A stretch of 64,000 nt of DNA from Aeoliella mucimassa (GTDB taxonomy: Bacteria > Planctomycetota > Planctomycetia > Pirellulales > Lacipirellulaceae): contig NZ_CP036278.1 of NCBI RefSeq assembly GCF_007748035.1, forward strand, positions 4,836,001 to 4,900,000, in the 5' to 3' direction. Of the stretch, positions 57,000 to 64,000 are shown one piece after another. The notes under the pieces were generated by a model. It was not told where the DNA came from, did not search any database, and was given only the letters and a program-made list of their open reading frames with translations. A program made the position numbers and the translations under genes. Numbering within the stretch: position 1 is the stretch's first letter; each line of letters begins with the position of its first letter.

Positions 57000-57596
57000 T
57001 TATAGCTTCTTGAGGTCGAACGTGGGGTTCACCCCCTCGCGCGAGCTGGAGTTCGCTTCGTGCCCGCAGGTCTTGGTTTCCCCACCTGCGGTGATCGTCA
57101 CGTTGTAGAGACCGATGAGCATCAAGTCGCGTCCCTGCAAGCTGCTCGGCAGGTCGGCGTCGGCGTACGTCAGCCGGGCGATGCCTGCGGAGTCGGTCGT
57201 GCCTTGAGCGGGAGAGAGCACGTCGGCCAGGAACTCGACCGGCGCGTAATTCACAGTCGCCCCGGCAACCGGGCGGTTGCTGCTGAGCACCGTGCACGTG
57301 ATGTTTGCCAGCGTTGCATCGCTGGCAAACAGCGTGCTCAGACGACTCTCGAGTTCGTCCTTGGCAATGTTGCCATCGCCGCTGGAGTCGTACAGTTGCA
57401 GGCTGTCGCGCAACGCGGGGCAGCTCTCGAGCTCGGAACTATCGAGCTGACCATCGCCGTTGGTGTCGAGCTTCTCGAACGCACTACTTGCGGCCGACGA
57501 AACGTTTACCGACTTGCTTCGCCAGTCGTCGTTATTCATCCCGCCGCAACCGGTGACTACCAGCAGCAACCCTACACACGCAGCCTGAACCTTCAA
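57000..57596 (-). CDS. EF-hand-containing lipoprotein (TTG start), function unknown
   Basis: A 198-residue protein. I start at TTG 57596, preceded by AAGGAG six bases upstream, which gives a lipoprotein signal peptide with lipobox VTGC (LLLVVTGCGG). Two EF-hand calcium loops follow: DTNGDGQLDSSEL near 45 and DSSGDGNIAKDEL near 70. The second half is an Ig-like or transthyretin-like beta domain (CTVLSSNRPVAGATVNYAP, then DSAGIARLTYAD), as in carboxypeptidase-regulatory-type lipoproteins of planctomycetes. No catalytic motif. It follows the DUF1559 gene by 55 bases on the same strand; such pairs are frequent in this phylum, as far as I recall. Confidence 0.75.
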   Translation of the reverse strand: MKVQAACVGLLLVVTGCGGMNNDDWRSKSVNVSSAASSAFEKLDTNGDGQLDSSELESCPALRDSLQLYDSSGDGNIAKDELESRLSTLFASDATLANITCTVLSSNRPVAGATVNYAPVEFLADVLSPAQGTTDSAGIARLTYADADLPSSLQGRDLMLIGLYNVTITAGGETKTCGHEANSSSREGVNPTFDLKKL

Positions 57597-57651
57597 CGCA
57601 CTCTCCTTCAATGCATCATCGCCGCGAACCGAATTGATCAACCAGCCAGCG

Positions 57652-58701
57652 TTACCGGCGGCCACCACTGTCGCGTTGGGGATTGTAATACTGCTCGTGA
57701 TCCACGGCACCATCCTTACGATTGCAAGCACCACGGAACGCGTAGCTGTCGATGTCGTATTCGATGGCATCCACGCTACCGTCGCAGTAGGCCATCATGA
57801 AAACTGACGGATGTGAGCTCCCGAAACGGGTGTCGTCTGGTACCCCTTCGGTGTCTTGCTGTGGAGCATTGTAGCCGTTGCGGTAGTTGTCGTTGTTGTA
57901 GCCAGTGCACCAAGTTTCGTTGTCACCACCATCGTTGCCAGTGATGTAGTTGGCTGGATTCAGGTACTTTTCGCCGTAGAGGAAAGTCTTGGACGTACCA
58001 TCGGTGATGTGACGAATATCCACTTCGCTGCGACGGAAGCTGATGCCGTTGAGTTCGGCCACTCCCAAACAACTGGAGGTCTTCTTGCCGGTCTTGCTGT
58101 TGCACCAATCAAAATTGGCTGCCGCTGCAATCGTCGATGGCTGATTACCATATTGGTTGTGCAACTGATCGCCGGTGTTGGCCGCGTAGTCGCTGCGACC
58201 AACCAGTCCGCCTCCGGATACGTTCTGAGCATTGTAGGCAATGAAGTCTCCATCCCACGGCTTCGGCATCAACGACGTGACCCGACGCGAGGGACAGCGG
58301 ATCATATCGACCGGCTGCTGCACCACCTGGGTTGCCCCAATTTTCTGCTGTGCAGTGATGTTCTCAGGATCTCCATCCGAGGCCAGATCGTGCAGAGCGG
58401 TCTCTTCAATGAAGGGGAGCAGCGAGTAAATCCACCCACCAGGTTGTTTTTCGCCGTAGCCGCGATCAGCGTCACCGACCCAGAAGTAGTCCCATCCACC
58501 AGAGGGATAGAACTTCATGGTGGATTGGTGATTCATCGCACCCAAAGCGAGTTGCTTTAGATTGTTGCGACAGCTTTCGCGTCGAGCCGCTTCGCGAGCT
58601 GCTTGCACAGCGGGTAACAACAGGGCTACCAAGATGCCGATAATGGCGATCACCACCAGCAGTTCAACCAACGTAAAGGCGGCATTCCGTTTTGTCTTCA
58701 T
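57652..58701 (-). CDS. DUF1559 prepilin-like protein
   Basis: A 349-residue protein of the planctomycete-expanded DUF1559 family. The N-terminus is a type IV prepilin-like leader: [35 protein letters not shown], with the +5 Glu present but Ala, not Gly, at -1. The middle has the family's [12 protein letters not shown] and PSRR motifs, and the C-terminus a typical DG region ([20 protein letters not shown]). A strong ribosome-binding site (AGGAG) precedes ATG 58701. It is probably processed by a prepilin peptidase and assembled in a pseudopilus or held in the inner membrane; role unknown. Confidence 0.9.
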
Positions 58702-58859: not shown

Positions 58860-61800
58860 TTAATTCTTCCGCATTTTCCAAGCCAGACCACAGGTCGCAG
58901 CCAGCAACAACATCACGAGCGAGGTCGGTTCGGGAACCGCTTGACCAGCAAGCAACTCGCCGAGATTCAACGAACCTGGATCGGGGTGATTGGCCCACAG
59001 GATACTCCAGTCGCTAAAGTCGACCATACCGTCCAAGTTGAAGTCGCCATTTTGCCAAGTGCCAAAGTCGCCCGCGGTCACGGTGTTGTGGGCACCTTGG
59101 AACTGATTGACCGAACGCCAGTTCGAAACGACCGCGTTGACGTCGATGTCGTCGATCACGCCGTCGAAGTTCGAGTCGCCGGGAATCAGGTCGGATCCAC
59201 CGAGTAGCGAATCGAGCTCTGCAGCAATCCAGGCGTTATCTTCAAACAGGTTGAATGTGCCGTAGTTCTTGCCAGCAGGCGAGGTAGTGACGCCGGTGTT
59301 GTCGCCATAGACGTACATCTCGATTTCGTCGACCGCCCCTTCGAAGTACTCACCATGTACCGCGCCGAAACCATCGCCTTCGAGTTCGGCGGCACCGATG
59401 GTGAGCTGCCCAACCCGAGTACCTCCCGAGATAAACGCTTCGGGTGGCTGAGTATCGGCGTTGGCCGAAACCGCGATTCCGTCGACGTAGACTACCGACA
59501 TGAACTCGTTGAAGTCTTTGCCACCATCAATTTCGGGAGCGAAATCGTCGCCGGCGGTATAGATGTGGTGCATCACGTGGTACCAGGTGTCGCCCACCAC
59601 GTCGACCGTGGCTTCGATGTCGGTATCATTCACGTGGTACGAGTTGATCTGAGTCCACTTGCCATCGGCAGTAATGGCAACACCACCGGCGGTCATCGTG
59701 TCCATCAGAACCACTTGACGTTCGGTGCCAAGTTTCGAGCCTGCTTCGGGATAAACCCACATCTGCAGACCACGAGCAGAAATGCCGTCATAATTAAAGG
59801 GGTAAGGATCCTCTCCATTGGGATCGATCAACGGCAGATTGGGAGCGTTGCCTTGTTCACCAAGCTCGGTAGGACCGGCCAAGACATCGGGACGATTCAA
59901 TGGCAGGTTCGTGTAGAGCACATCGCCATCGCCATCGAACTGAGCGCCCAGCGTGTTGCCAGCACCGGGACGATTCAACCCCGAAGCGCCCATGCTCACG
60001 TAGGTTGGATTGCCAATGACTTGCAGATCGATGTAGGCACCGCTCGGACCTTGCGAATCGTAGGTATAGCCGTCGCTCTCCGAACCAATGGTGGTGTTCT
60101 CCGTAGCGGTTTCGTCGTCGCCTAACTGATACCAACGATCGACCGTGACATTGGCTACCTGAGCCGATGCCTGACTGCAGATCGCAACCGCAATCAACAG
60201 AGCAGCGGCAGTTCCCTTTGAGGCTACGCTTGAAAACATCGCGTTCAATACTCCCTTACGTTGTGCGCCAACCACCAAGGCGATCGTGCCGAGCACGGTT
60301 AGCATTAACATCGAAGAAGGCTCAGGAACGACGCTGGAGGCAGCTAAGCTGCCACTAGCGCCTCCAGAGACGTTCCCAAAGTTGGCCTTCCAAAGATCGT
60401 AGTCATCGCTATCGACGGTACCCGAACCGTTGCCGTTGCCCGACAGCAGATCGCCTTCGGGCGAGCCAAGGTTATCGCGCCACACGGTGTAGTCGCCGAG
60501 ATTCACGATGCCGTCGCCGTTGAAGTCGCCATCGAGGCTCGGTGCGACCACGGTAGTGAACTCCACATTACCGGTTCGCATGAGTCCCGAAACTGCATTG
60601 CGGTACAAGAACTCAACGGGCTGCTCGCCAGCACCCGCCTGATAGGCGGCACCGAGGAACATGCTTTGGCCTGCTTCGAGCGACTGGCTGCCAGTCAGGT
60701 GGAATTCTGACAGGAAGCCATTGCTAGCGCCACCGAGCACTTCCCAACCATCGGCATCGCCAGGCCCTGCGTCGAGTGGGCTCCAACCAGCCTCGTTTAG
60801 GCTGTTGTTGGACGAAGAAATCTCGTAGTACTCCATCGGCACTGCAGCAGCGATGGTCGTATCGTTCACGATTTGGGCCAGTCCGCTCGTGGGATCGATT
60901 TCGAGCGTAAGAGCGGTTTCCGCTTCGCTAAGGAAACTCGAAGCGGTGATTTCGATACCAGCAATATTGCTGATACCAGGATTTGTACGAGCCGGAGAAC
61001 TTAGCGTAAGCAAACCAGACAAACCACTGGCGGTAATTGAGTTACCAGAGTCGATCATGCCAGAGCTAATGGCAAATGCTCCACTGGTCGTGTAGTTGGT
61101 GCCATTAATGTCCATATCGAACAGACCAACGGTTCCATCACCAGAGTCGGTGTTGAAGTACACGGTGACATCGTAAGTTGCAGCGGGAATGTCGGCGATC
61201 TCGACGTTCATGCCAGTCGCCCCGTTATCGTCGAGAAAACCACGCAACAGCTTCGCTTCTTCGGTATCTTCGGGACCAGCCGACCAAGTGGTAGCCGAGT
61301 GCCATGAAACGCCAGCACCGGTGCTAATGCCATTTTGATCGACCAAGGTGCTGGAACCGAGATTGCCTGAGAAGTTATTCCAGTTCGTCGAATTGACCTG
61401 TCCGGCAGGACCGTCGACGGCAACGCCGTTGCCGATGAAGTTGATGCTGATTGCCGATTGAGCGGTGGCCACGTTGGCAGACAAGGTGAAAACGGTCAGC
61501 ACGCAAGCGACCAAGGCCAACCCGCGACGCATTTTTCGACCACAGCAAAAACCAGCTAATACCAAGCCAAACAGGGCCAACGTAGTGGGCTCGGGCACCG
61601 AGTTGGCTTGCGGCAATGCGGCAAACGCAGCGGCCGAGTTGTTCGCGATGAACACTTCCTTAAAGGCCAGCAGGTCGTCGATGTCGTTGTCGCCATCGCC
61701 GTCGAAGTCGCCTTGATAGTAAGCTTCAGCCACCGACAAGCCAGTCAAATCGCTCTTATAGCCGTCGCGTTGGGTCGGCCAGTCGAGGGCGTCGATCACG

Positions 61801-62915
61801 CCGTCGAAGTTGTAGTCGCCATACTCGTAGGTGGTGCTACCGTTGCTCGAATCGCTGTCAACGACTTCCATGATACCCTTCGTGGCATCGGCATCACCAG
61901 CAACCAGATACTCAAACGACAAATCCGCTTCCGAGGGGAACTGGCGCCAGAGTGCGGAGCCGAGCGAAATCGACTGCCCTTGGGCGATGGTGCCAGTCGA
62001 TAGAGTCGCTTCGCTCAATTCTTCCTGCGAATCAACGATTTCCATCCAGCTATCATCGCTTCCGATGGTGCCATCCGAGTCGTAGGTATCGGTAATCGAA
62101 GTCCATGCTTCGGGATTCCACGCACCATTGCCTGATAGCAGACCAAGACCGGCAAATTCCACCGTCGAACCGGTGTTGTTGCTGAGCATCACGTCGCCGG
62201 TGTCGCGATCGACACTCAAACGTAGCGCAACGTCGTAGATGATGTCGTCGATCTCTTCGATGATCAAACCGGTGATCGAACCGCGCTGCGAACCGTTGCG
62301 AGGGTTGCCTTGAATCGACAGCGAACTTCCCGAGGAATTGATGGTCCAGTAATTTCCACGGTTAGTTCCGTCGGCTAGCGCCCAGGAGTCGCCCGTCGCA
62401 GCACTGGTAGCGTTGATGCCACCGTAGGCAGGGGCCGTTGCTGCACCAAACACCGAAGCTCCGTTCACGGTGAAGTCGAGCGTGTCGTATTCATCGCCTT
62501 GATCAGAAGCCAGCAAACCGTAAACGCGGTAGCTGGCATAAGGAATACCGGAGACACTGACCGAAATGCCCGAGCCACCATCGTCGAGATAACCGACCGA
62601 TAGCTTGGCTTCGTCGGTGCCGGTACCGTCGCCGTTGTACCAGACATTCGAAGAACTCCAGGTAATCGAAGCACCGGTATCGATTCCGGAATCGTCGATC
62701 AGGTTGCTCATGCTTCCCGAAGCGCTTGCCGTGGATCCATTCCAGTTGGCACTATCGGTATCTAGAGGACCGATCAACTCGCCGCCGTTGAAGATTTGGT
62801 TGCCGTTGTTTTCGCTGAAATTGAAAGAAATAATCTGGGCTTCGGTTTTTACACAGCAGCAGGCCGCGCCAACTATGAGGGCCAGCCATAGATACGATCG
62901 GGCAGGGAACGTCAT
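58860..62915 (-). CDS. Triple PEP-CTERM/dockerin-like exported protein (three exosortase substrates in one reading frame)
   Basis: A 1351-residue single open frame made of three complete units. Unit 1 (1-461): signal peptide (LWLALIVGAACCCVKTEAQ), beta domain, dockerin-like motifs (GDYNFDGVIDALDW, GDFDGDGDNDIDDLL), then PEP-CTERM VPEPTTLALFGLVLAGFCCGRK. Unit 2 starts at Met 462 (base 61532) within the basic end of that motif: signal peptide MRRGLALVACVLTVF..., domain, GDFNGDGIVNLGDY, VPEPSSMLMLTVLG... Unit 3 starts at Met 893 (base 60239): signal peptide, LamG-like domain (VDEIEMYVYGD), GDSNFDGVIDDIDV, and VPEPTSLVMLLLAATCGLAWKMRKN at the true end. ATG 62915 has AGGAG 10 bases before it; unit 3 has AAGGGAG before its Met, so internal starts are possible. 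Exosortase would cut at each PEP motif. Confidence 0.8.
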   Translation of the reverse strand: MTFPARSYLWLALIVGAACCCVKTEAQIISFNFSENNGNQIFNGGELIGPLDTDSANWNGSTASASGSMSNLIDDSGIDTGASITWSSSNVWYNGDGTGTDEAKLSVGYLDDGGSGISVSVSGIPYASYRVYGLLASDQGDEYDTLDFTVNGASVFGAATAPAYGGINATSAATGDSWALADGTNRGNYWTINSSGSSLSIQGNPRNGSQRGSITGLIIEEIDDIIYDVALRLSVDRDTGDVMLSNNTGSTVEFAGLGLLSGNGAWNPEAWTSITDTYDSDGTIGSDDSWMEIVDSQEELSEATLSTGTIAQGQSISLGSALWRQFPSEADLSFEYLVAGDADATKGIMEVVDSDSSNGSTTYEYGDYNFDGVIDALDWPTQRDGYKSDLTGLSVAEAYYQGDFDGDGDNDIDDLLAFKEVFIANNSAAAFAALPQANSVPEPTTLALFGLVLAGFCCGRKMRRGLALVACVLTVFTLSANVATAQSAISINFIGNGVAVDGPAGQVNSTNWNNFSGNLGSSTLVDQNGISTGAGVSWHSATTWSAGPEDTEEAKLLRGFLDDNGATGMNVEIADIPAATYDVTVYFNTDSGDGTVGLFDMDINGTNYTTSGAFAISSGMIDSGNSITASGLSGLLTLSSPARTNPGISNIAGIEITASSFLSEAETALTLEIDPTSGLAQIVNDTTIAAAVPMEYYEISSSNNSLNEAGWSPLDAGPGDADGWEVLGGASNGFLSEFHLTGSQSLEAGQSMFLGAAYQAGAGEQPVEFLYRNAVSGLMRTGNVEFTTVVAPSLDGDFNGDGIVNLGDYTVWRDNLGSPEGDLLSGNGNGSGTVDSDDYDLWKANFGNVSGGASGSLAASSVVPEPSSMLMLTVLGTIALVVGAQRKGVLNAMFSSVASKGTAAALLIAVAICSQASAQVANVTVDRWYQLGDDETATENTTIGSESDGYTYDSQGPSGAYIDLQVIGNPTYVSMGASGLNRPGAGNTLGAQFDGDGDVLYTNLPLNRPDVLAGPTELGEQGNAPNLPLIDPNGEDPYPFNYDGISARGLQMWVYPEAGSKLGTERQVVLMDTMTAGGVAITADGKWTQINSYHVNDTDIEATVDVVGDTWYHVMHHIYTAGDDFAPEIDGGKDFNEFMSVVYVDGIAVSANADTQPPEAFISGGTRVGQLTIGAAELEGDGFGAVHGEYFEGAVDEIEMYVYGDNTGVTTSPAGKNYGTFNLFEDNAWIAAELDSLLGGSDLIPGDSNFDGVIDDIDVNAVVSNWRSVNQFQGAHNTVTAGDFGTWQNGDFNLDGMVDFSDWSILWANHPDPGSLNLGELLAGQAVPEPTSLVMLLLAATCGLAWKMRKN

Positions 62916-63287
62916 CGCTATCAAACTCCTGAAGATACGCGGAAATACTTTAGCGCACTGGTGCAAACTTAATGGTGTACTACTAGCCTCCACTCCCCGA
63001 AGTTGCCAAAGGCAACCTTTTCCCCCGGGCGAGAGAAGCTTCAGGCCGTTCAATGAGGTCGAATCGTTGACGGCCGACAGGCAAAACAGCAAAAGAAATC
63101 TCAAAAGTGCAAGTCATTTAACTCCATAAGCAAACACACGGCTTTCATCAATGAACCGCCGATAGTTTGTCCAAGTACTGAACTTAATTGATCACTCCCT
63201 CCGGCAGTATGTATATTTGTAAAGTAACAATCTTTTTTTCAATTAAGCCAAAATTTCACCAAACCCAAGCGCCTACAGGTGCGTCGT
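62916..63287. promoter_or_regulatory. Divergent intergenic region between the triple PEP-CTERM gene and the XylR-like regulator
   Basis: About 370 bases, AT-rich near 63180-63260, between divergent starts. It should contain promoters for both and may carry the binding site of the regulator. A frame reaching 63104 extends the large gene upstream but lacks signal-peptide or domain features. Confidence 0.4.
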
Positions 63288-64000
63288 ATGCGGAAAAGGC
63301 TAGAACCCCAACTTAAACGCTTGGCTTTTGCTTCTGACGAGCTCAACGACTACATGAGGAAGCTCGCAGTCGGTGTGTGTCACTTCGGAACACCGAAGAA
63401 TGGAATGTTTGTTCGCGACTTCTCACTGCGCGATCCGCAAGCATTCCAAGCGCTATTGAGTTGGTGTCCCCTGGCTGTGGTGAGCTTTGTTGCTTCGGAA
63501 CAAATAGGCTTGCTGAAACCGATTCTCGATTCGGACATCCCTGTCGTGAATGCCAGTCGCTCCCAGCCAAGCGAGAAGATGGCAGTGGTTTTGGGCGACG
63601 CGGAAGAGTTCTACACTTCGGTTACCCGAATATTCCACGACAACCACATTGACCATATCTGCCAGGTAGCGATGGGCGAAGTCCGGGGCCCCTTCAGCAC
63701 TCAGCACCGATACAAGCAATTTGCGCTGAAGCACAACCTTCCCTACAAAAGCTACTGGCTCAAGGAGCCCGATTCGCTCAAAGACCTGCACCTCATGGAA
63801 ACGGTCGACCCGGAGTTCGCCGACTGGCTCAAGCGAGTCCGTAAACCAGTGGGGCTGTTTTCGCAGAATCATATGACCGGCTGCTACATCGCCCGGGCGT
63901 GCGAATTGCTCGGTATCCAAGTGCCGGAAGAAGTGCAGATCGTCGGTTGCGACGGATTCGAAGTGTCTACCTCCACTCGGCCCACGGTCACTAGCCTGCG
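63288..64000 (+). CDS. Partial XylR/LacI-like transcriptional regulator, sensor domain
   Basis: The window ends inside this gene; 237 codons are present. The sequence matches the periplasmic-binding-protein-like sensor domain of XylR-type regulators: a first strand near residue 28 (AVGVCHFGT), IPVVNASR, then RYKQFALKHNLPYKSYWL, PVGLFSQNHMTGCYIARACELLGIQVPEEVQIVGCDG near the end, the family's VGxxxxxxxG...VPEDVxVVGxD pattern. In XylR the DNA-binding AraC domain would lie downstream, outside the window. The start is ATG 63288 or GTG 63279. It could sense a sugar and control the divergently read PEP-CTERM gene; this is inference. Confidence 0.75.
   Translation, partial: MRKRLEPQLKRLAFASDELNDYMRKLAVGVCHFGTPKNGMFVRDFSLRDPQAFQALLSWCPLAVVSFVASEQIGLLKPILDSDIPVVNASRSQPSEKMAVVLGDAEEFYTSVTRIFHDNHIDHICQVAMGEVRGPFSTQHRYKQFALKHNLPYKSYWLKEPDSLKDLHLMETVDPEFADWLKRVRKPVGLFSQNHMTGCYIARACELLGIQVPEEVQIVGCDGFEVSTSTRPTVTSL

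Follow-up and report, generated by a model that had tools for sequence, protein, structure and literature searches.

Three exosortase-substrate units in one open reading frame of Aeoliella mucimassa, a candidate bacterial polyprotein

Can one bacterial open reading frame deliver several separately sorted surface proteins? The question is raised by a stretch of 64,000 nucleotides (nt) from the planctomycete Aeoliella mucimassa (the window; positions 4836001-4900000 of a genome that forms one contig of 6,608,792 bases). Its minus strand carries a single open frame of 1351 amino acids (AA; 58860..62915) in which three exosortase-substrate units stand head to tail. The frame (62915-58860) starts with ATG and ends with TAA, contains 0 internal stops and is stop-free at both junctions between units, as the first-pass annotation, made from the letters alone, had claimed. 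Three stretches match the PEP-CTERM family (PF07589, E 1.3e-12, 47.7 bits against a curated cut-off of 20.7), and NCBIfam TIGR02595 gives the same three-stretch match. Several exported units with internal signal peptides stand in one uninterrupted frame, as expected of a polyprotein processed by signal peptidase. We consider it likely from the sequence that the frame encodes a bacterial polyprotein, one translation product that signal peptidase and exosortase would cut alternately.

Architecture and conservation of the frame

The frame opens with the N-terminal signal peptide typical of an exosortase substrate (AA 1-26, 62838..62915), read from the sequence with its boundary set by eye. In the alignment, the mature region of unit 1 (AA 27-438, 61602..62837) consists of a variable N-terminal part, a shared beta domain and a dockerin-like repeat. 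Internal PEP-CTERM tail 1 follows (AA 440-464, 61524..61598) with VPEP, a hydrophobic helix of ~16 residues and RKMRR; its best PF07589 stretch is AA 439-461, scoring 32.3 bits in the genome search. RKMRR leads directly into the signal-peptide core of internal signal peptide 2 (AA 460-485, 61461..61538), which ends ATA/Q (slash, cut site by eye). The basic end of tail 1 does double as the n-region of this signal peptide, as had been proposed, and the two methionine codons named at the junctions, M462 (61532, within RKMRRG) and M893 (60239), are in frame.

The mature region of unit 2 (AA 486-862, 60330..61460) carries a variable N-terminal part, an immunoglobulin (Ig)-like beta domain and a dockerin-like repeat, assigned from a structural model, Foldseek and Pfam searches of 44 alignment members. 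Internal tail 2 (AA 863-887, 60255..60329; PF07589 and junction reading) repeats the layout of tail 1 with a longer loop. The next signal peptide (AA 886-918, 60162..60260, by eye) ends ASA/Q and includes the methionine at 60239. Unit 3 (mature region AA 919-1326, 58938..60161) has a LamG/ConA-like fold, according to its model and Foldseek, and a dockerin-like repeat. The terminal PEP-CTERM tail (AA 1327-1351, 58863..58937; PF07589) is the only one at the extreme C-terminus; tails 1 and 2 are not.

The orthologue in A. straminimaris (locus L152, whose protein is also that of L021 in genome G001) likewise has three tails in one open frame. It is 54% identical to the window frame, with proportions of synonymous and nonsynonymous differences (pS and pN) of 0.73 and 0.33 over 1337 aligned codons, and synonymous sites are near saturation. 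Units 1, 2 and 3 are 58%, 39% and 73% identical, and the two junctions 31% and 22%. The junction sequence has therefore largely turned over while the frame, PEP motif, helix, basic loop and signal peptide were kept. A sequencing or assembly error that erased stops or joined genes, against which the first-pass annotation had cautioned, is excluded by this independent orthologue, open at both junctions, and by 37 other internal junctions elsewhere in the A. mucimassa genome; we give it practically no weight. The Pan181 genome is also described as closed in the excerpted text of PMC13315336.

Recurrence and anatomy of the junctions

The frame is not the single odd case that it had seemed to be. 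We sampled 100 stretches of the A. mucimassa genome (777,383 bases) picked around PEP-CTERM and dockerin matches. They encode 192 terminal and 39 internal [VI]PEP tails. The internal ones fall in 25 frames, of which 11 have three tails, 12 two and 1 five; in the remaining frame, a tail is followed by an alpha-L-fucosidase. This count is a lower bound, as 150 of 314 candidates were scored and 100 of 115 planned stretches, some of them widened, were taken. A loose scan yielded 249 PEP-like tails; 47 were internal, and dropping the eight of these without [VI]PEP left the 39. The rule misses variants such as L167, a frame of three units that has TPEP at both junctions and was counted with one tail. 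One more stop-free junction lies outside the 100 stretches (2905474-2905596).

Relatives carry the same architecture. The 72 loci from named relatives (L152-L223) hold 53 internal and 198 terminal tails, although the internal tail of L216 (71 AA before the stop of a 280-AA frame) is probably merely a long C-terminus. Searches of 43 family genomes found junctions in loci of at least 11, G000 included. Across 294 phylum-wide genomes, near-full-length stop-free junctions outside the A. mucimassa genome occur, among the matches listed, in two (G178 and G095); the cargo is different there, and one genome has F5/8 type C and LamG domains, the other a sulfatase. The recurrence of the design in about two dozen further frames and in relatives suggests that some surface proteins of these bacteria are synthesised as chains to be cleaved.

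In L228 (1-3111, minus; from G095, outside the family), a sulfatase is followed by an internal PEP-CTERM tail, a signal peptide and a further unit. L145 (4693-8142, minus) encodes 1150 AA without a stop, in which a PEP-CTERM unit is followed by a signal peptide and then by an alpha-L-fucosidase that carries an F5/8 type C domain.

All 39 internal junctions of the A. mucimassa genome combine a PEP tail, a basic loop and a signal-peptide-like core. The loops have a median length of 7 AA, contain in total 144 Lys/Arg against 4 Asp/Glu and have a net charge of at least +2 in 39/39 cases, whereas the multi-unit frames are acidic overall (12.3% Asp/Glu, 4.7% Lys/Arg). Core hydrophobicity reaches 1.5 or more in 39/39 junctions and in 41/815 control segments; the lowest junction value is reached by 17/815 controls. 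The distance from PEP to the first basic residue has a median of 19 in both internal and terminal tails. In the terminal ones, the chain ends a median of 5 residues past that basic residue, close to the loop length. Tail scores are also indistinguishable (median 34.6 for internal and 34.8 for held-out terminal tails, p 0.57), which rules out that the internal tails are decayed relics. A chance open frame is ruled out by the hydrophobic cores set against the controls, together with orthologue pairs matched in unit number.

A scan for hairpins that ignored the motif was run on frames of at least 400 AA that end in a PEP tail. It found 90 internal two-helix hairpins in 257 frames, of which 88 were flagged with PEP; one of the other two has VPEP just beyond the window of the script and the other has SEP. 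Hairpin and sorting motif are coupled.

Processing of the chain and competing explanations

The junction anatomy fits the alternate processing by signal peptidase and exosortase that the first-pass annotation had proposed. One ribosome would make one chain, of which the Sec route would export unit 1 until the PEP-CTERM helix halts transfer. The short basic loop would be retained in the cytoplasm, and the following hydrophobic stretch would act as a signal peptide that sends unit 2 out, a cycle repeated for unit 3. Signal peptidase would cut behind every signal peptide and exosortase at every PEP motif, freeing a two-helix hairpin. The predicted outcome is a set of three distinct surface proteins whose amounts are linked. 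We infer translation as one chain, both cleavages, the linked amounts and a role of the units with glycans from sequence features.

Several observations weigh against this polyprotein explanation. A hydrophobicity scan gave two helices at 31/39 junctions and a single one at 8; for 4 of these 8, the missing helix is in the scan's extra-segment list, starting just before PEP. The same scan gave 6 weak segments inside mature parts. A crude rule found a first signal peptide in 21/25 frames, leaving 4/25 frames, with 8/39 junctions, without a recognisable one, and these may be decayed. Start codons are also present: under a wider rule, which takes in everything between the PEP motif and the core, ATG is absent from only 13/39 A. 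mucimassa junctions, and 4 contain no start codon of any kind. The window frame has an in-frame ATG at both junctions, the second with GGGAG 11 nt upstream, and separate initiation of its unit 3 is possible. We know of no demonstration that exosortase acts on an internal site. The excerpted parts of the founding paper (PMC1569441) discuss the enzyme solely for C-terminal tails.

The four frames without a first signal peptide differ in kind. In the five-tail frame, unit 1 is split by a mobile element of ~1 kb (L100 7207-8215, G000:C1 about 3721246-3722254), and the downstream frame remains open. The reverse strand of this element matches an element beside the exosortase in L148. A two-tail frame (L090 1392-3659, minus, G000:C1 3248066-3250336) opens with what look like residues from the edge of the same element and possibly represents its second insertion into such a gene. 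The start of another two-tail frame, at 3476704, follows an in-frame TAA; for this frame and the five-tail frame the crude rule caught only the first PEP tail, and they were counted as having no signal peptide. The fourth is a three-tail frame at 3869457.

How far do alternatives account for these data? The units could be made separately from internal translation starts, the missing stops being incidental, and the ATG codons at both window-frame junctions, the Shine-Dalgarno (SD)-like GGGAG at the second and the 26/39 A. mucimassa junctions with an ATG between PEP and core speak for it. Confined to the loop, the picture is different. Among 85 junctions (39 from A. mucimassa and 46 remaining after removal of L021-L047 copies), ATG is absent in 61 and ATG, GTG and TTG are all absent in 32. 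An ATG with an SD-like site occurs at 3/85 (3/24 with ATG), compared with 59/120 single-unit genes. The A. straminimaris orthologue has ATG in neither loop, with GTG and TTG in the second. In 123 pairs of separate tandem PEP-CTERM genes, the distance from the stop to the next signal core has a median of 118 nt, far beyond the loop length, and the fused form is therefore not a simple read-through of intergenic gaps. We regard internal starts as highly improbable. An uncut chain seems unlikely, though less so: here the internal PEP motifs would stay intact, with or without cutting by signal peptidase, and the units would remain tethered by hairpins or form one multi-pass surface protein, like beads on a string. 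The topology alone would serve such a tether equally well, and the lack of a known precedent for internal exosortase action favours it. On the other side, the internal tails are of full PEP-CTERM quality, the units also occur singly, and the hairpins nearly all carry PEP, which a tether would not need. The conservation of the PEP motif at internal hairpins thus favours cutting over a tether.

Homologous units encoded as separate genes count for the polyprotein explanation. Among 38 LamG-type units, 28 are last in a fused frame, 2 are first and 8 are separate genes, and 28/38 is not a fair frequency because the loci were chosen for their similarity to fused queries. Seven of the 8 separate genes have a VPEP tail, and their signal peptides were read by eye; L189 has VPKP in place of VPEP, and L170 is frame-interrupted, with its N-terminal part in another frame. 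The first-pass annotation had held that relatives with three clearly separate genes and transcripts would refute its reading. Separate units do exist, but at other loci, and the A. straminimaris orthologue of the 1351-AA frame is fused. Some two-unit frames (L127, L171, L173) have a separate LamG gene within ~1 kb upstream.

On the tree of LamG units, the C-fused label needs 5 changes, at least 2 of them forced by well-supported branches. We compared unit numbers in 14 reciprocal best pairs with either member multi-unit (A. mucimassa genome against the fetched part of A. straminimaris); 10 have equal numbers, one has 5 versus 4 units, and three have 1 versus 2 (33-39% identity). The five-tail frame (L100 8449-10021) includes two adjacent units with 95.5% identity over 784 nt; here an entire unit was recently duplicated in frame. 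The polyprotein architecture may have arisen or been rearranged more than once. In two three-unit frames (L097 2568-6758, minus, and L167 7884-12068, plus), the LamG unit is first, not last, and the order is thus changed.

The fusion itself could be a neutral accident, in which a workable hairpin of tail and signal peptide makes stop loss free and fused forms build up without benefit. This concerns why the fusion exists, not how it is processed, and is compatible with the polyprotein explanation. The several changes of arrangement on the LamG-unit tree point in this direction, as do the frames that look decayed at their start and the few junctions outside the A. mucimassa genome among the matches listed phylum-wide. 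The 10 reciprocal best pairs that retain their unit number, the 22-31% junction identity in the single pair measured and the compact loops point the other way. We hold a neutral origin to be possible but doubtful.

For the family at large, we lean with limited confidence towards a broader proposal. Part of its exosortase-sorted surface proteins would be made as polyproteins cut alternately at the fused hairpin, giving units in fixed proportion that may co-assemble through dockerin-like and perhaps cohesin-like parts, with an architecture that arose or was rearranged more than once. If this is true, long planctomycete surface proteins may each be several proteins, and bacteria would use a virus-like polyprotein strategy for surface display in fixed proportions. 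Should exosortase cut the internal tails, its substrates would include hairpins that carry an additional helix. That would constrain models of its action and offer a ready test for an enzyme family for which little cleavage has yet been demonstrated.

Domains, known systems and genomic context

The three successive cycles of signal peptide, domain, dockerin-like repeat and PEP-CTERM tail described by the first-pass annotation are present, with the qualification that the dockerin-like repeats are weak and only unit 3 is LamG-like. Dockerin_1 matches the 1351-AA protein below its cut-off (E 0.00075, 20.1 bits against 22.9) and the unit 1 region alone with E 0.059. At E up to 1, it matches 41/44 unit-2-like alignment members (best E 2.2e-9) and 16/22 unit-3 members. 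Laminin_G_3 matches 12/22 unit-3 members, but the Pfam search gave no match to this model in the unit 3 of the window. The unit 3 model (predicted local distance difference test, pLDDT, 83) resembles, in Foldseek, lectin-fold domains of glycan-acting and glycan-binding proteins.

Units 1 and 2 differ in their N-terminal parts and have one Ig-like beta domain in common. The unit 2 model is of lower quality (mean pLDDT 68, N-terminal half poor). On this model, the beta domain shows a weak fold likeness to cohesin (Foldseek E 4.9e-4 to 2e-2); the target template modelling (TM) scores are 0.20-0.45, and antibody domains follow at only slightly worse E-values. The dockerin-like repeats and the weakly cohesin-like fold of units 1 and 2 recall the cohesin and dockerin proteins of cellulosomes, from which the 1351-AA protein differs in its below-cut-off Dockerin_1 match, and the 44 unit-2-like members in lacking any Pfam cohesin match and in a Pfam lamin tail domain in 6/44. 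The three units are probably glycan-related surface proteins, given their lectin-like fold and dockerin-like repeats.

Each unit resembles a regular PEP-CTERM/exosortase substrate in its signal peptide, PEP motif, helix and basic cluster, and exosortase genes are present in the genome. The difference is that 2/3 tails are internal here and are followed by another signal peptide. According to the excerpted parts of PMC1569441, the PEP-CTERM tail is virtually always near the C-terminus, and the very few proteins with much longer tails may be non-functional.

Closer precedents for the junction come from outside the exosortase systems. Viral glycoprotein polyproteins of flaviviruses, alphaviruses and bunyaviruses are cut by signal peptidase. 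They resemble the frame in having a helix, a short loop and an internal signal sequence between units; a bunyavirus polyprotein precursor is named in the abstract of PMC7926653. The present case differs in being bacterial, in the second cut expected from exosortase at PEP, in its two to five tails per frame and in its many cargoes. In Bradyrhizobium, the FbcH precursor of cytochromes b and c1 is cut at an internal signal sequence by signal peptidase. FbcH is likewise a bacterial polyprotein split by signal peptidase, but it comprises two respiratory subunits with one junction and no sorting tail. We know of no tandem polyprotein built with sortase/LPXTG, rhombosortase or myxosortase tails. Substrates of these enzymes share the three-part C-terminal tail (PMC11980579, in the excerpted text). 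A description of tandem, internal or polyprotein PEP-CTERM tails was not found in the open-licence literature searched, and the excerpted portions of PMC9850573 and PMC12078418 contain nothing on internal tails.

The genome encodes both predicted processing enzymes. The exosortase family (PF09721) is matched 4 times, within 3 frames and with a best E of 1.1e-57; what we take to be the exosortase Cys, Arg and His motifs can be read by eye in two of the three. A signal peptidase I is also encoded. In L149 (1-2310, minus, G000:C1 about 1484638-1485399), the exosortase domain continues in frame into a long region that by eye resembles tetratricopeptide repeats (TPR), and the preceding gene ends in a VPEL-type tail.

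Downstream of the 1351-AA frame lies a DUF1559 pseudopilin-like gene on the same strand (57652..58701, minus; PF07596, E 3.2e-41). DUF1559 relatives occur within 4 kb of 38/58 multi-unit frames, a figure that has no background control. A small EF-hand protein with an uncertain start follows (57000..57770, minus; EF-hand_5, E 2.2e-9 on 57003-57650).

On the opposite side, a divergent gene that runs past the window end (63279..64000, plus) encodes a regulator; its full frame, in L118, matches Peripla_BP_3 for a sugar-binding-like domain and HTH_18 for an AraC-type DNA-binding domain. The units could stand under the control of this putative sugar-responsive AraC-type regulator, and a role in glycan use is likely. 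Beside the regulator and beyond the window end, another gene (L118 8295-9935) has dockerin-like repeats by eye and begins near LEPLEERQMLS, which we take to be a planctomycete N-terminal motif.

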